Source of the DNA: Halorussus vallis
GTDB lineage: Archaea > Halobacteriota > Halobacteria > Halobacteriales > Haladaptataceae
Direction: 5' to 3'
Length of the DNA: 64,000 nt
Assembly (NCBI RefSeq): GCF_024138165.1
Contig: NZ_CP100000.1
Location: 186,001 to 250,000 of the forward strand
Shown: piece after piece, positions 5,948 to 45,196 of the stretch
Position numbering within the stretch: the stretch's first letter is position 1
How the letters are laid out: each line of letters opens with the position of its first letter
The notes under the pieces: generated by a model
What the model was told of the DNA's origin: nothing
Seen by the model: the letters and a program-made list of their open reading frames with translations, nothing else
Database searches by the model: none
Position numbers and translations under genes: made by a program

Positions 5948-6352
5948 ATGGACGACCGAGACACCGATGCGAGCGACACCGCGACGTTCGACCTGTCGAG
6001 AGCCGAGGCGCGCGAGGTCATCGCCGCGCTCTCGGACGCCGAGATGACGGCGTCCGGCGACCGAGAACGCCACTACCGCAACGTGGCGAGCCACCTCGCC
6101 GCCGAGTTCGACTTCGACGAATACCGCGGCCCCGAGAAGGGCGAGATGGCCGCCGGCGACGACGAGGGGTGGATAGACAACGACGCCATCTTCGGGAGCG
6201 ACGACGAGGACGACGAGGAGACCATAGAGCTCTCTCGGCGCGAGGCCGACGAGGTGACCGACGCGCTCGCCCACCACGAACCGGGGGCCGACGAGAACGC
6301 CGGACAGGTCGAGGACGTGCGCCGGCGAATCGAGGACGCGTTCGGCGACTGA
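5948..6352 (+). CDS. Acidic haloarchaeal protein with two internal repeats, function unknown
   Basis: This 134-aa, very acidic protein has no signal peptide and no membrane segment. It contains two copies of one module: DLSRAEAREVIAALSDAE at about residues 17-34 and ELSRREADEVTDALAHHE near residue 95, each followed by a short amphipathic helix (RHYRNVASHLAAEF and QVEDVRRRIEDAF). A DDEDDEE run joins them. The ATG at 5948 is preferred over the longer frame from 5825 because the extra 41 residues are basic and unlike the rest. I do not recognise a function; a small helical, possibly dimer-like soluble protein is inferred. Confidence 0.75.
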   Translation: MDDRDTDASDTATFDLSRAEAREVIAALSDAEMTASGDRERHYRNVASHLAAEFDFDEYRGPEKGEMAAGDDEGWIDNDAIFGSDDEDDEETIELSRREADEVTDALAHHEPGADENAGQVEDVRRRIEDAFGD

Positions 6353-6454
6353 GGCGGCGACGCGGTGGGCGGTCCTGCCCGCTCCGGGCGCACTGCGGCA
6401 ACGGCCGCGACCGAACCGCCCGAACTTTTCGGGTTGCGGATAGTTCACCCGCAC

Positions 6455-39567: not shown

Positions 39568-40326
39568 ATGGCGAGAGACCGATTTCACATCTGGGACTCC
39601 GAGTGCGATACGTCGTTCGACGACGACTTCTCGGACTTCCTCCACCTCCTCAACGAACTGAAAGCCATCGGCTGTAACATCCTGGTGGTCGGCGAGGCGC
39701 CCCGGTGCGTGTTCACGCGCGCGAGCGCCCACCTCCTCGGCGGGCCGGAGACGGTCCGCCACCACCTCCTGGCCGTGACCGACGTGGCCGCCCGGAGCGT
39801 CGCCGACCGACTCCCCGACCCCGAGTCGACGCCGCGACCGCTCGGCGAGACGACCCACGTCGTCAACTACGCCGCCTCGGTCCGGTCGGTCACGTCACCG
39901 ACCGACCCCGCGACCCCGCCGGAGGTCGCGGGCGTCCCCGAGACGCGAATCGAGGAGTCGGACCTCGAACGCCTCGAAGCGACGCTCGTCGAGTCGATAG
40001 ACGAGTTTACCGCCCGCGCGGTGAGTCCCCGCTCGGCGGAACTCCGGGTGGCCGTCGACTCGCTCGAACCGCTGGTGGCCCGACACGGCGAGGCGGCGGT
40101 CGGGCGTCTCCTCCGAGCGGTCGGCGCGTCGGTCTGCGAGGCGAACGCGATGGCCCACTACGTCCTCCCCGAACCGTACGACAGCGAAACCGTCCGAGCG
40201 CTGGCCGAGGAGGTCGACGCCGTCGCCGAACTCCGCGCGGTCGACCCCGCCGAGTACGGCCACGACGCCCAAGAGCGGTGGCACGTCCCGGGTCGAGACC
40301 TCACGATGGACTGGACGCCGCTCTGA
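39568..40326 (+). CDS. DUF7504-like protein, degenerate P-loop; partner of the CHAT protein
   Basis: This 252-aa soluble protein begins with a Rossmann-like strand and loop, IGCNILVVGEAPRCVFTRAS, then AHLLGGPETVRHHLLAVTD. This resembles a RecA/KaiC-like nucleotide fold in which the Lys of the P-loop is missing, a pattern I associate with DUF7504 proteins of haloarchaea (name from memory). The second half is helical. A 110-bp gap on the same strand leads to the CHAT gene, so they are likely one transcript. ATP binding is doubtful; a protein-protein or redox-sensing role is possible but not shown. Confidence 0.6.
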   Translation: MARDRFHIWDSECDTSFDDDFSDFLHLLNELKAIGCNILVVGEAPRCVFTRASAHLLGGPETVRHHLLAVTDVAARSVADRLPDPESTPRPLGETTHVVNYAASVRSVTSPTDPATPPEVAGVPETRIEESDLERLEATLVESIDEFTARAVSPRSAELRVAVDSLEPLVARHGEAAVGRLLRAVGASVCEANAMAHYVLPEPYDSETVRALAEEVDAVAELRAVDPAEYGHDAQERWHVPGRDLTMDWTPL

Positions 40327-40436
40327 AACCTGGACAGAGTTATGTTCCGGAAGAGACAACCCGACGGACGAACCGTGCGAGGAATCCGCGACCGACCCTC
40401 GTCGGCGACGACTCTGTCGACCGGCGGCGTGACACC

Positions 40437-42611
40437 ATGAACCCCGCGTTCCGTCCGCTGCCGGACGACTCCGGCCTCGAAGTGGTCGACCCCATCGAGA
40501 CTCGACGAGTCGCGATGGTCACCGACGACCCCGTGACGCCGACGCCGACGTCCGCCGAGGCGTTCCCGGCGCCGGTCGACGCCGCCTGTCGAATCAGCAC
40601 CGACGGGTTCGCGATCTCCGGCGGCATCCGGGTCGACGTTCGCAGGCCCGACTTCGCACACCGGGACACCCTCATCTCGTGCGGAACTCGGACGTTCCCG
40701 GCGGCCGAGCACGTCGTCGAACTCCACCTGCCCGTCAAAGTGTACCTGCGGGTCGACGGTCGGCTGACGGTGGAGTCGAGGACGAGCTCGGTTCGGTTAG
40801 ACTTCGGGGCGCCGACCGACGTGCGGGTCGGCGCCCGGTCGTACCACAGTTCGCCCGCCGGAACCGTCACGGTCCCCGACGACCCGGAGGCGGTCATGCG
40901 GGCGGTTTCGACGTTCTCCTCGGCACTGAAGACCACCTCGCCGGAGCGGTCGTGGGCGACGTTGCGGGGCCATCCGCCCAGGGTCGAGCGGGGGGACTCC
41001 CTCCGCGTTCCGGACGGCCTCGAACCGCCCGAAACCGGCGTCACGATTCGCGTGCCGCCGGACTACGGCTCGATTTACGCGGTGACGCCGCTGTCGTACT
41101 ACCTCGGCGCGGCGGTCCGTCCGGGCGAAACGGCGGCCGTGACCGCCGACGCCGGCGTCGAGTTCCGTCTCGGCGACGACCCGACCGAGGTGGCCGACGC
41201 CGCGAGACGACTCCTCGAACGCGCGTTCGTCCTCGACTGCGTGACGCGAACCGAAGGACTGTACCCTGACAACTTCCACGAGCGCGAGGTGCTCGAACGG
41301 TACGTCGACCTCGACTTCGCGGCGCTGTACGACGCGTCGCTCGCCGAGCGACTCGCCGCGTACCTGTCGGTGCCCGACGAGGCGGTCGACGCCGTCAGGC
41401 CGACGTGGCACCGGGTCACCTACGTCCGGCCCGACCCGCAGGCGGTCGAACTCCTCCCCTACGCCGTCGACGCCCTCTCGCACGTCCTGGTGAAAGACAC
41501 GAGCGAGACGACGTGGTCGGCCACGGAGAGCCAGGTTCGCACCGAGAACCTCCTCGGCGAATTCAAGCGCGACCCCGAATCGGTCGACGACGGAGACGCC
41601 GACTCGAACGGGGCGTCGATTCGGTTGAAGTCGGGCGCCGAATCGTCGGAGCGGGGGACCCGCGACGACGCCGCGTTCGTCCCGCTCCCCGACGAGGACG
41701 CGCTGGTCGGCGCGTGGATCGGCGACGAGACGCCGCTGAACGGCGCGAAACTGCTTCCGGCCGCGTTCGAGCGCGACGCGACGCCCTCGACCGACGGCGT
41801 CGTCGACATCGCGGTGGTCTGCAACGACACCGAGATGCGCGAAGAGTGGGCGGCCGTCACGGAGATATACCAGAGCCGCGACGACGTCCGGGTGAACGTG
41901 GACTGCGAGTTCGACGTCTCGCGCGACCGCCTGCGCGACGTCCTCGGTCGGGAAACCGACCTCCTCCACTTCGTCGGGCACATCGACGGTCGGGGGCTGA
42001 AGTGCGACGACGGCGTGCTCGACGCCGAGACGCTGGACGACGTCGGCGCGACGACCGTCCTGTTGAACGGCTGTCGCTCGCACGACCAGGGGGTCGCGCT
42101 CGTCGAGGCCGGCACGAACGCCGCCGTCGTGAGCCTCGCCGACCTCTGGAACGCCGGCGCGGTCGAGGTCGGTGAGACGTTCGCGCGCCTCCTCCGCTTC
42201 GGCTTCGACGTGGGGAGCGCGATGGCGGTCGTCCGCGAGTACACGTCGCTCGGCCGCGACTACGTGGTCGTCGGCGACCCCGGCGTCATGGTCGCCCAGT
42301 CCCGGTCCGGCGTCGTCACCGTCGTTCACCTGCTCGACGCTTCGGACTGCGGTGGCGAGTCGTGGGACGGCACGTCGTTGGAGGGCGAGGTGACCATCGA
42401 GTTGTGCGCCTACCCGACGAGCCAAATGGGACTCGGCGGGACCAGCCGCCCGAACGTGCCGGAGGCCACCGCCCAGCACCTCAGCGTCGGGCGGTGCGGT
42501 CGGACCACCACGACCGCGGCGTCGCTCCGCGAGGCGGTCGCCGACGACCCGACGCCGATGGTCGTCGACGGCGAGTTGGTGTGGAGCGACGAGTGGTTCG
42601 CCGACGGGTGA
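40437..42611 (+). CDS. CHAT-domain (caspase-like protease) protein
   Basis: This 724-aa protein has a C-terminal CHAT peptidase fold. VDIAVVCNDTEMREE starts the sheet (about residue 456), TDLLHFVGHIDGRGLKCDD gives the catalytic His (H515 in GHID), and TTVLLNGCRSHDQGVAL gives the catalytic Cys (C546 in NGCRSH). YVVVGDPGVMVAQ closes the fold near residue 610. The first 430 residues form an unrecognised, largely beta module with an acidic linker near 375-410, and 100 residues follow the CHAT part. CHAT proteases often act in signalling or antiviral suicide systems after activation by a sensor. The DUF7504-like gene upstream would be the natural partner. No signal peptide is visible; it acts in the cytoplasm. 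Confidence 0.8.
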   Translation: MNPAFRPLPDDSGLEVVDPIETRRVAMVTDDPVTPTPTSAEAFPAPVDAACRISTDGFAISGGIRVDVRRPDFAHRDTLISCGTRTFPAAEHVVELHLPVKVYLRVDGRLTVESRTSSVRLDFGAPTDVRVGARSYHSSPAGTVTVPDDPEAVMRAVSTFSSALKTTSPERSWATLRGHPPRVERGDSLRVPDGLEPPETGVTIRVPPDYGSIYAVTPLSYYLGAAVRPGETAAVTADAGVEFRLGDDPTEVADAARRLLERAFVLDCVTRTEGLYPDNFHEREVLERYVDLDFAALYDASLAERLAAYLSVPDEAVDAVRPTWHRVTYVRPDPQAVELLPYAVDALSHVLVKDTSETTWSATESQVRTENLLGEFKRDPESVDDGDADSNGASIRLKSGAESSERGTRDDAAFVPLPDEDALVGAWIGDETPLNGAKLLPAAFERDATPSTDGVVDIAVVCNDTEMREEWAAVTEIYQSRDDVRVNVDCEFDVSRDRLRDVLGRETDLLHFVGHIDGRGLKCDDGVLDAETLDDVGATTVLLNGCRSHDQGVALVEAGTNAAVVSLADLWNAGAVEVGETFARLLRFGFDVGSAMAVVREYTSLGRDYVVVGDPGVMVAQSRSGVVTVVHLLDASDCGGESWDGTSLEGEVTIELCAYPTSQMGLGGTSRPNVPEATAQHLSVGRCGRTTTTAASLREAVADDPTPMVVDGELVWSDEWFADG

Positions 42612-42612
42612 C

Positions 42613-43353
42613 TCAGAAGCCGCTGAACTTGTCGCGCCGGTAGATGTCGAGTTCGCTCACGGTCGAGTTCGTCTGGCGGGCCGCGAACGCGACCGCATCG
42701 GCGACCTCCTCGGGTTCGGTGACTTCGCCCTCCTCGAACCGCTCGGCGAAGGACTCGCCGTCGGCCGACCCGAACTCGCTCCGGACCTCGCTGGGGTTGA
42801 CGACGGTGACCGCCACGCCGTCGGACCCGACGTTGCCCTCGACGCTGTGGGCGAACCCCCGGAGCCACCACTTGGTGGCGGCGTAGACCGGGTTGAACGG
42901 TCGGGGGAACTTCCCGGCGAAGCTTCCGACGAAGACGAGGTTGCCCTCGGCTTCTCGGAGGTGCGGGAGGGCGGCCCGGGTCGCGTAGAAGACGCCGTCG
43001 ACGTTCGTCTCCATCATCGTCCGGTACTGCTCGGTCGACAGTCCTTCGACCGACTCGCCGCGGGCGAGTCCCGCGTTGTTGACCAGCGCGTCCAGGCCGC
43101 CGAATTCCGAGACGACCGCGTCGACGGCCTCCTCGACCGAGTCTTCGTCGCGCACGTTCGTCGGGACGACCAGCGTCTCGGCGTCCCACTCGCTCTCGAC
43201 CTTCGTCGCCACGTCGTTCAACACCTTCTCGCGCCGGGCCGCGAGCGCGACGGCCGCGCCGTCGCGCGCCAGCGCGTGTGCGGTGGCCTCGCCGATACCC
43301 GAACTCGCGCCCGTGACGAGCGCGACCTTCCCGTCGAGCGGAGTGTCTTCCAT
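42613..43353 (-). CDS. Short-chain dehydrogenase/reductase
   Basis: This 246-aa classical SDR has GASSGIGEATAHALARDG (cofactor loop), a NNAGLARGE motif, catalytic Ser in LVFVGSFAGKF and the catalytic YxxxK in PVYAATKWWLRGF. The basic ARREK after strand 2 favours NADP(H). The substrate is unknown. It ends 1 bp after the CHAT gene stop, tail to tail. Confidence 0.93.
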   Translation of the reverse strand: MEDTPLDGKVALVTGASSGIGEATAHALARDGAAVALAARREKVLNDVATKVESEWDAETLVVPTNVRDEDSVEEAVDAVVSEFGGLDALVNNAGLARGESVEGLSTEQYRTMMETNVDGVFYATRAALPHLREAEGNLVFVGSFAGKFPRPFNPVYAATKWWLRGFAHSVEGNVGSDGVAVTVVNPSEVRSEFGSADGESFAERFEEGEVTEPEEVADAVAFAARQTNSTVSELDIYRRDKFSGF

Positions 43354-44008: not shown

Positions 44009-45196
44009 ATGAGACGGCTGCTGGCAGTCGGTCTGGTGGTCGCCTTGCTCGTCGGTACGGTGCCCGTAACGTCTGTTTCCGGGACACCGACGGCGCGCGA
44101 CGCGACCGCGGCGCCGAAGACACTGGGTGCCGCCGAGGACTTCGACAGCGTCGAGTTCCACGTCACGGTCTACGAGAACGGGACCGCCGAGTGGACGTTT
44201 ATGTACCAGCGGACGCTGAACAACGAGTCCGAACGCCAGCAGTTCCATCGGTTCGCCAACGAGTTCAACAACAACTCGACGAAGCTCTACACGCAGTTCA
44301 AAGCGCAGGCTCAGCGACTGACGAGCGCCGGCCAGAACGTCACCGGACGCGCGATGAAGGCCGAGAGCTTCTCGAAGAACGCCGAGGTCGGCGGACTGGT
44401 CAACAACAACCGCGGCATCGTGCAGATGTCGTTCCAGTGGACCGGGTTCGCCAGCGCCGACGGCGACACCCTCGTCATCGGCGACGTGTTCGAGGGCGGC
44501 CTCTACATCGGCCCGAACCAGTCGATGGTCGTCCACTCCGGCCCGCAACTGCGGTTCCAGTCGGTTTCCCCGAACGTCTCGTCGATGGCCGGCGACGACC
44601 TGGCTTCGAGCGAGTCGGTCACGTGGCAGGGCGAGCGCGACTTCACCGACCGCCGGCCGCGCGTGAAGTTCGAACCCGTCAAGACGACCCCCACCGTGAC
44701 GACCGAGACGGGGGACGCGAACGAGACGACGCCGGGCAACGCGTCCCAACCGCCGGCCAACGGCGGGTCGCCGCTGTTCCTGTTCGTCGCCGCCGTCGTC
44801 GTCCTTCTGGGACTGGCGGCGGCGTTCGCGTGGCGGCAGGGCGACTTCGGCTCGCTCGGCGGGACGAGCGACAACCCCGGAAGCGGCGGGGCGGGCGGCG
44901 CCGGCGCAGCCGCGGTCCAACAGCGAGACGACCCCGCACCGGAACCGTCGGTCAGCGACGAGGAACTGCTGACCGACGAGGCCCGGGTGAAGAAGCTACT
45001 AGACGAGAATGGCGGCCGGATGAAGCAGGTCAACATCGTCGACGAAACCGGCTGGTCGAAGTCGAAGGTGAGTATGCTCCTCTCGGAGATGGAGGAGGAA
45101 GGCGACATCAGCAAGCTCCGGGTCGGCCGCGAGAACATCATCAGCCTCGAAGGTCACGAACCCGACGCCGCCGGGTCGCCGCTTGAAGGCGAGTGA
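44009..45196 (+). CDS. Membrane-anchored protein: exported N-domain, helix, cytoplasmic winged helix
   Basis: This 395-aa protein has a cleavable-type signal (LLAVGLVVALLVGTVPVTSV), an extracytoplasmic domain to about residue 240 rich in N-x-S/T sites, a Thr-rich stalk, one transmembrane helix (PLFLFVAAVVVLLGLAAAFA), a Gly/Ala linker, and a cytoplasmic winged helix at about 325-380 (EARVKKLLDENGGRMKQVNI, VDETGWSKSKVSMLLSEMEE, EGDISKLRVGRENIISL). The form fits haloarchaeal one-protein signalling regulators that link outside events to DNA. TATA TTTTATACC is 26 bp upstream, so the mRNA is probably leaderless. Whether the HTH binds DNA at the membrane or after cleavage is unknown. Confidence 0.85.
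   Translation: MRRLLAVGLVVALLVGTVPVTSVSGTPTARDATAAPKTLGAAEDFDSVEFHVTVYENGTAEWTFMYQRTLNNESERQQFHRFANEFNNNSTKLYTQFKAQAQRLTSAGQNVTGRAMKAESFSKNAEVGGLVNNNRGIVQMSFQWTGFASADGDTLVIGDVFEGGLYIGPNQSMVVHSGPQLRFQSVSPNVSSMAGDDLASSESVTWQGERDFTDRRPRVKFEPVKTTPTVTTETGDANETTPGNASQPPANGGSPLFLFVAAVVVLLGLAAAFAWRQGDFGSLGGTSDNPGSGGAGGAGAAAVQQRDDPAPEPSVSDEELLTDEARVKKLLDENGGRMKQVNIVDETGWSKSKVSMLLSEMEEEGDISKLRVGRENIISLEGHEPDAAGSPLEGE

Follow-up and report, generated by a model that had tools for sequence, protein, structure and literature searches.

The 64-kb window, by which we mean the whole stretch of Halorussus vallis DNA analyzed here, carries two adjacent forward-strand genes separated by 110 bases; the first encodes a DUF7504 protein and the second a candidate CHAT-type protease (Table 1). 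Both open reading frames, reported in an earlier note on this DNA, were recovered at the same positions. Farther along the window, a gene at 44009-45196 encodes a DUF7345 and DUF7343 protein with an apparently exported N-terminal domain, a membrane span, and a winged helix, which would make it a membrane-bound regulator.

Table 1. Features of the DUF7504-CHAT locus, in window coordinates.
Feature	Position	Strand	Basis
252-aa DUF7504 protein with a predicted, degenerate KaiC/RecA-like domain	39568..40326	+	PF24336, 141 bits; AF2 and Foldseek
Degenerate P-loop of DUF7504, GCNILVVGEAPRCVF, Walker-A Lys absent	39670..39714	+	Sequence; CHAT-linked relatives likewise
Candidate CHAT-type caspase-like cysteine protease, 724 aa	40437..42611	+	PF12770, E 1.2e-4; family alignments
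N-terminal region of CHAT protein, ~residues 1-430, without known domain, family-conserved	40437..41726	+	Alignments
Putative CHAT catalytic domain, ~residues 440-625	41754..42311	+	PF12770 at 466-597; predicted strand/helix order
Putative catalytic His515 codon (cac)	41979..41981	+	Invariant in 69/69
Putative catalytic Cys546 codon (tgt)	42072..42074	+	Invariant in 69/69
SDR dehydrogenase gene, outside the module, marks DUF7503 loss	42613..43353	-	PF00106

The match of the 724-aa protein to the Pfam CHAT model is marginal (22.0 bits against a cut-off of 24, and 24.1 bits in the genome-level search), and no other Pfam family matched it. The same model detects 9 of 17 family members at E<=0.1. 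The His/Cys dyad that the earlier note had proposed, H515 and C546, is confirmed at the codon level. Both residues are invariant when 69 distinct homologues are aligned, as are H511, C523, G526, N544, and S548. A profile built from the 17 members places the LHFIGH and LNxC motifs in register with those of a solved CHAT protein, 8tl0, in a match that is weak overall (E 0.077). AF2 modeling with six sequences gave a poor model (mean pLDDT 52, pTM 0.29), in which the predicted order of strand 509-512, His 515, strand 540-543, and Cys 546 fits what a caspase-like fold would need. A structure search of the PDB with this low-confidence model returned only meaningless matches, a direct PDB sequence search with the 724-aa protein found nothing, and NCBIfam gave no usable match. 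Overall, the conserved residues suggest that the CHAT family is likely to be an active cysteine protease. The idea that residues 1-430 form an independent, swappable sensor is not supported, since this region is co-conserved with the CHAT part along the whole length (its invariant residues include P46, G132, R134, H179-P181, and D267) and was poorly modeled with the rest.

The 252-aa protein is an exact family match to Pfam DUF7504 (E 5.7e-41; cut-off 27 bits), to which Pfam assigns no function. Its AF2 model (pLDDT 80, pTM 0.80) matched the KaiC CI domain in Foldseek with probability 1.00 (E 5.9e-7), and RecA was also matched. Where a Walker A motif (GxxxxGK[ST]) would be expected the protein reads GEAPRCVF, and GK[ST] is likewise absent from the CHAT-linked relatives with a readable loop. 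The earlier description of a RecA-like but Lys-less loop is thus borne out by the modeled fold and the missing lysine. Because that lysine is absent, DUF7504 probably hydrolyzes no ATP, and its natural reading would be that of a non-hydrolyzing switch or adaptor. It resembles KaiC CI, RecA, and ArlH/FlaH in its predicted fold but differs from the KaiC/RecA ATPases in being a single small domain without the Walker-A lysine.

Of the 69 distinct CHAT genes, 46 have a DUF7504 gene no farther than 1.5 kb away (immediately upstream and co-oriented in 32, downstream and co-oriented in 8, divergent in 5, and otherwise placed in 1), against a chance expectation of about 1% given 16 DUF7504 genes in 5.05 Mb. 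The pairing, which the earlier note held would fail if the two genes rarely adjoined elsewhere, is therefore recurrent; 23 of the 69 have no DUF7504 nearby. CHAT and DUF7504 distances are correlated (Mantel r 0.81, p 2e-4), a value to which shared species history contributes. In Haladaptatus, RefSeq annotates the upstream partner gene as a HalOD1 output domain protein. DUF7504 also occurs with an extra, HalOD1-looking N-terminal domain at L065, L078 (two copies), L087, L088, L092, and L093, where the HalOD1 name derives from the RefSeq annotation of the neighboring case. Five loci with CHAT and no DUF7504 (L029, L066, L067, L089, and L090) have in common a different same-strand upstream gene of ~230 aa with the pattern MPLK...RWDGGVGWxAHP.

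The H. vallis genome (5.05 Mb, 5 contigs) encodes seven CHAT genes of this family, an eighth match being the second half of one frame, together with 16 DUF7504 domains; the six other CHAT paralogues are 35-50% identical to the window copy. A contig scan with a single protein as query recovered only five close loci, and the named relatives are mostly Halorussus. At the level of the order, the family is present in 173 of 195 genomes and 57 of 66 genera. Beyond the order, matches in the phylum sample are confined to four genomes of one family (f25) and are distant, with neither DUF7503 nor DUF7504 as neighbors. These relatives (L105-L108) align over the whole CHAT protein, with LCTDSS in place of the LNAC motif in L106. 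No family member was found in the phage collection or among viral contigs, a mobile or viral origin was rejected on those searches, and PADLOC assigned no family to either the DUF7504 or the CHAT protein. With this spread and the negative phage and viral searches, the CHAT family is cellular, vertically widespread, and paralogue-rich, as the earlier note had supposed in favoring a cellular over a mobile function. One locus, L110 (2572-9806, genome G072), carries three CHAT genes in direct tandem, with DUF7503 and DUF7504 not detected in the 15-kb stretch.

Clustering of the neighbors of CHAT genes revealed, immediately past the CHAT stop codon, a very small gene that runs in the opposite direction. 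It is tail-to-tail with CHAT in 59 of the 69 distinct genes, in a count that permits overlap of stop codons, and the gap is mostly -4 to +10 nt, reaching 253 nt. The gene is an exact match to PF24335 (Pfam's DUF7503; best E 1e-21), a family whose number adjoins that of DUF7504 and which is likewise without an assigned function; RefSeq lists it as hypothetical or leaves it unannotated (e.g., L145, ORF 6260-6425). The linkage also holds in reverse. All 31 above-cut-off DUF7503 loci that were read have CHAT tail-to-tail, while two sub-cut-off loci do not. Across the same 195 genomes, DUF7503 scores above cut-off in 163, every one of them CHAT-positive, and ten CHAT-positive genomes are without it. 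As it accompanies 59 of 69 CHAT genes and DUF7504 is missing near 23, DUF7503 rather than DUF7504 is the more constant CHAT partner. The two genes first observed are both real, but the pair is incomplete as a description, for the most constant neighbor of CHAT is one that the window does not contain. Other neighbors, including UspA, SDR, and ferritin-like genes, were rejected as module parts for being lineage-specific.

Two multi-copy arrangements were also observed. In H. vallis itself (L030, 3934-11670; contig C1, 896-904 kb), a head-to-head cluster holds CHAT and DUF7504 in two copies each, along with a pair of DUF7503-type micropeptides whose tails differ (GVAVIFGP and SHDTHPGP). At L138 (1337-1626, genome G056), one CHAT gene is preceded by a DUF7503 tandem in which both copies encode the same tail, SNTSSISGP, in the manner of duplicated pheromone propeptides.

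DUF7503 peptides are about 44 aa long, with a consensus of roughly MSDxxLxxYLAxNPRMxGVLFTxxLLLSQAGxAAA followed by 6-8 variable residues and a Gly-Pro end. Among 59 peptides, Pro18 is conserved in 58, R/K19 in 55, Leu34 and Gly38 in 54, and the terminal GP in 52; a (-3,-1) small-residue, signal-peptidase-like pattern precedes the variable part in 56, and a charged residue falls within 16 positions past P-[RK] in only eight. Tails are distinct in 58 of the 59, and the six tails of the H. vallis genome all differ. The codon positions differ at rates of 0.31/0.26/0.53, which indicates that the frame is translated and under protein-level constraint. For 37 close pairs, the tail has a pN/pS of 0.42 and the leader one of 0.14, a contrast that is exaggerated by choosing pairs on leader identity; with values below 1, these pairs give no sign of positive selection on the tail. 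Upstream of DUF7503, the region from -60 to -26 is ~75% AT and contains TATA-like words, so the gene probably has its own promoter. A processed peptide signal or a paralogue-specific substrate would be expected to show this combination of conserved leader, short diversified cargo, and fixed end. The signal-peptide-like leader may also simply anchor the peptide in the membrane, and the conservation of its N-terminal part exceeds the need of a signal peptide.

No DUF7503-like reading frame is present in the 64-kb window. The SDR gene ends two bases past the CHAT stop and occupies the usual place of the peptide, and the H. vallis genome holds no unpaired DUF7503, either in the profile search or among two more divergent copies from the neighbor test. 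On the CHAT tree the peptide occurs nearly throughout; the 10 of 69 genes without it are the window copy, a seven-member clade, L091, and L094. A GP-ending frame at L094 was rejected as a peptide. The seven-member Halorussus clade (L009, L010, L042, and L044-L047) retains DUF7504, and a conserved, convergent thioredoxin-like gene stands in the peptide's place, followed in several members by a cysteine-synthase-like gene. When the CHAT proteins without peptide were searched for candidate recognition residues, no position changed consistently across several independent losses. Because the peptide is found over nearly the whole tree and has been lost here, the window pair is an orphaned derivative of a larger module; it would be a poor first choice for experiments.

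Starting from the observed arrangement (the genes, their linkage and conservation, the leader and tail anatomy, and the loss in the window), we infer proteolytic activity, export or processing of DUF7503, recognition of its tail, and the existence of a ligand, a substrate, and an output. The family would seem to be a so far undescribed signaling module of archaea, and no paper naming DUF7503 or DUF7504 was found among the open-access papers searched. We tentatively propose, with somewhat less than even confidence, a three-part, peptide-coupled, caspase-like signaling protease with a KaiC-like regulator. Its first part would be a cytosolic CHAT-type caspase-like cysteine protease, which a degenerate and probably non-hydrolyzing KaiC-like DUF7504 protein would bind or gate. 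The DUF7503 micropeptide, encoded tail-to-tail from its own promoter, would be the cognate peptide of the protease, delivered by its conserved membrane- or signal-peptide-like leader and probably cut after the AxA motif. The variable tail with its Gly-Pro end would then be the specificity part, either as a ligand sensed by the protease module or as a paralogue-specific pro-substrate, and differing tails among the paralogues of one genome would keep the channels apart. The ten CHAT genes that lack the peptide, the window copy included, count against this proposal and imply that the protease can function in its absence; the orphan in the window may be constitutive, may answer the peptide of another paralogue, or may be driven by DUF7504 alone. 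A more specific version, possible but doubtful, casts the caspase-type protease as a cytosolic receptor or effector, with exported DUF7503 trimmed to Gly-Pro pheromones of 6-10 residues, one channel per paralogue pair, and a dead KaiC-like gate.

Several other explanations can be set against the three-part module. Conservation in the N-terminal part and the membrane span, the near-constant P-[RK], and a tail pN/pS below 1 would all suit a peptide that anchors CHAT in the membrane, inhibits it, or serves as its housekeeping substrate, with the cytosolic N-terminal helix of the peptide (NPR/HPK) being bound or cut and the tail unconstrained. Cleavage after Arg or Lys is common to many clan CD peptidases. 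An unconstrained tail is harder to reconcile with constant length, with a Gly-Pro end after a variable stretch, and with the distinctness of almost every tail, and we regard this explanation as rather doubtful, though possible. Alternatively, DUF7503 could be a membrane-active effector, a micro-pore or holin-like killer that CHAT activates or restrains within a cell-death or defense module, much as some bacterial proteases activate gasdermins. A caspase-type protease does adjoin a hydrophobic single-span peptide that seldom carries charge past P-[RK]. A pore, however, needs no hypervariable short tail with a constant Gly-Pro end, a single genome can harbor several intact copies that differ in their tails, the distribution is near-universal, chromosomal, and vertical, and the PADLOC, phage, and viral contig searches were all negative, so that this account seems quite unlikely.

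The earlier note had envisaged a two-gene protease switch, in which DUF7504 is the regulator, residues 1-430 are a built-in sensor, and no peptide takes part. The recurrent DUF7504-CHAT association stands, and such a switch would describe the window copy and the seven-member clade, both of which keep DUF7504 without the peptide. As an account of the family it leaves out the near-constant DUF7503 partner, which spans nearly the whole tree, whereas DUF7504 is missing from the vicinity of a third of the genes, and we regard it as improbable. Finally, a catalytically dead CHAT scaffold would explain the marginal PF12770 score and the disturbed Cys motif of one methanogen relative (L106), but both H515 and C546 are invariant in all 69 haloarchaeal homologues, which makes this reading very improbable.

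The proposed three-part module has partial likenesses among described systems. In Craspase, Csx29, with a dyad at H615/C658, cuts Csx30 (PMC10028731). The haloarchaeal protein resembles Csx29 in having a CHAT-type His/Cys dyad in its second half and a dedicated protein partner; it differs in having no CRISPR, no recognized TPR, and another N-terminal region, and in being paired with a ~44-aa membrane or leader peptide rather than a 565-aa protein. Profiles for TPR-CHAT/Craspase (TPR, Cas7-11) found nothing in the CHAT protein or in the named neighbors scanned. Similarly, HetF of filamentous cyanobacteria is a CHAT-domain putative protease in a differentiation pathway that requires its active site (PMC8406250), and this pathway uses the short peptide morphogens PatS and PatX (PMC9410556). 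The comparison here is at the level of the CHAT domain and of the use of short peptides; the peptide genes of the HetF pathway do not lie tail-to-tail with hetF. In gene layout, a likeness is seen in Rgg/SHP group III, where the peptide gene is convergent with and overlaps the end of the receptor gene (PMC13361665). As in Rgg/SHP and other RRNPP systems, a tiny gene for a hydrophobic precursor peptide lies beside its putative receptor gene, and the DUF7503-CHAT layout is convergent and overlapping too. DUF7503 anatomy, read as that of a putatively exported precursor with a variable mature end, would fit an RRNPP-like logic. RRNPP receptors, in contrast, are TPR/HTH regulators of Firmicutes, and here the neighbor is an archaeal CHAT protease in which no TPR or HTH profile of Pfam matched, which sets it apart from that class. 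The parallels with Rgg/SHP group III and Craspase are best taken as analogies and not as membership.

Haloferax volcanii has a very high, stress-tied caspase-like activity for which no gene is known (PMC3615174). In the portion drawn on here, a 2025 study of density signaling in this species names no such peptide or protease (PMC12240190). Among our control genomes, H. volcanii matches both the DUF7503 and DUF7504 profiles and has no match to the CHAT model PF12770. Because the same model barely detects the window protein, a CHAT gene of H. volcanii may have escaped notice, and since every DUF7503 locus read above cut-off carries CHAT tail-to-tail, we infer that H. volcanii holds a CHAT partner beside its DUF7503, one that would be a testable candidate for the orphan caspase-like activity.

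If the proposed function is true, the presence of a diversified micropeptide coupled to a caspase-type protease across almost all haloarchaeal genomes would have implications for how caspase signaling arose, and the module would offer a small, definable gene set for asking about caspase-like activity and micropeptide control. Should the pheromone version also prove true, it would provide an archaeal peptide communication system together with genes for the orphan archaeal caspase-like activity.
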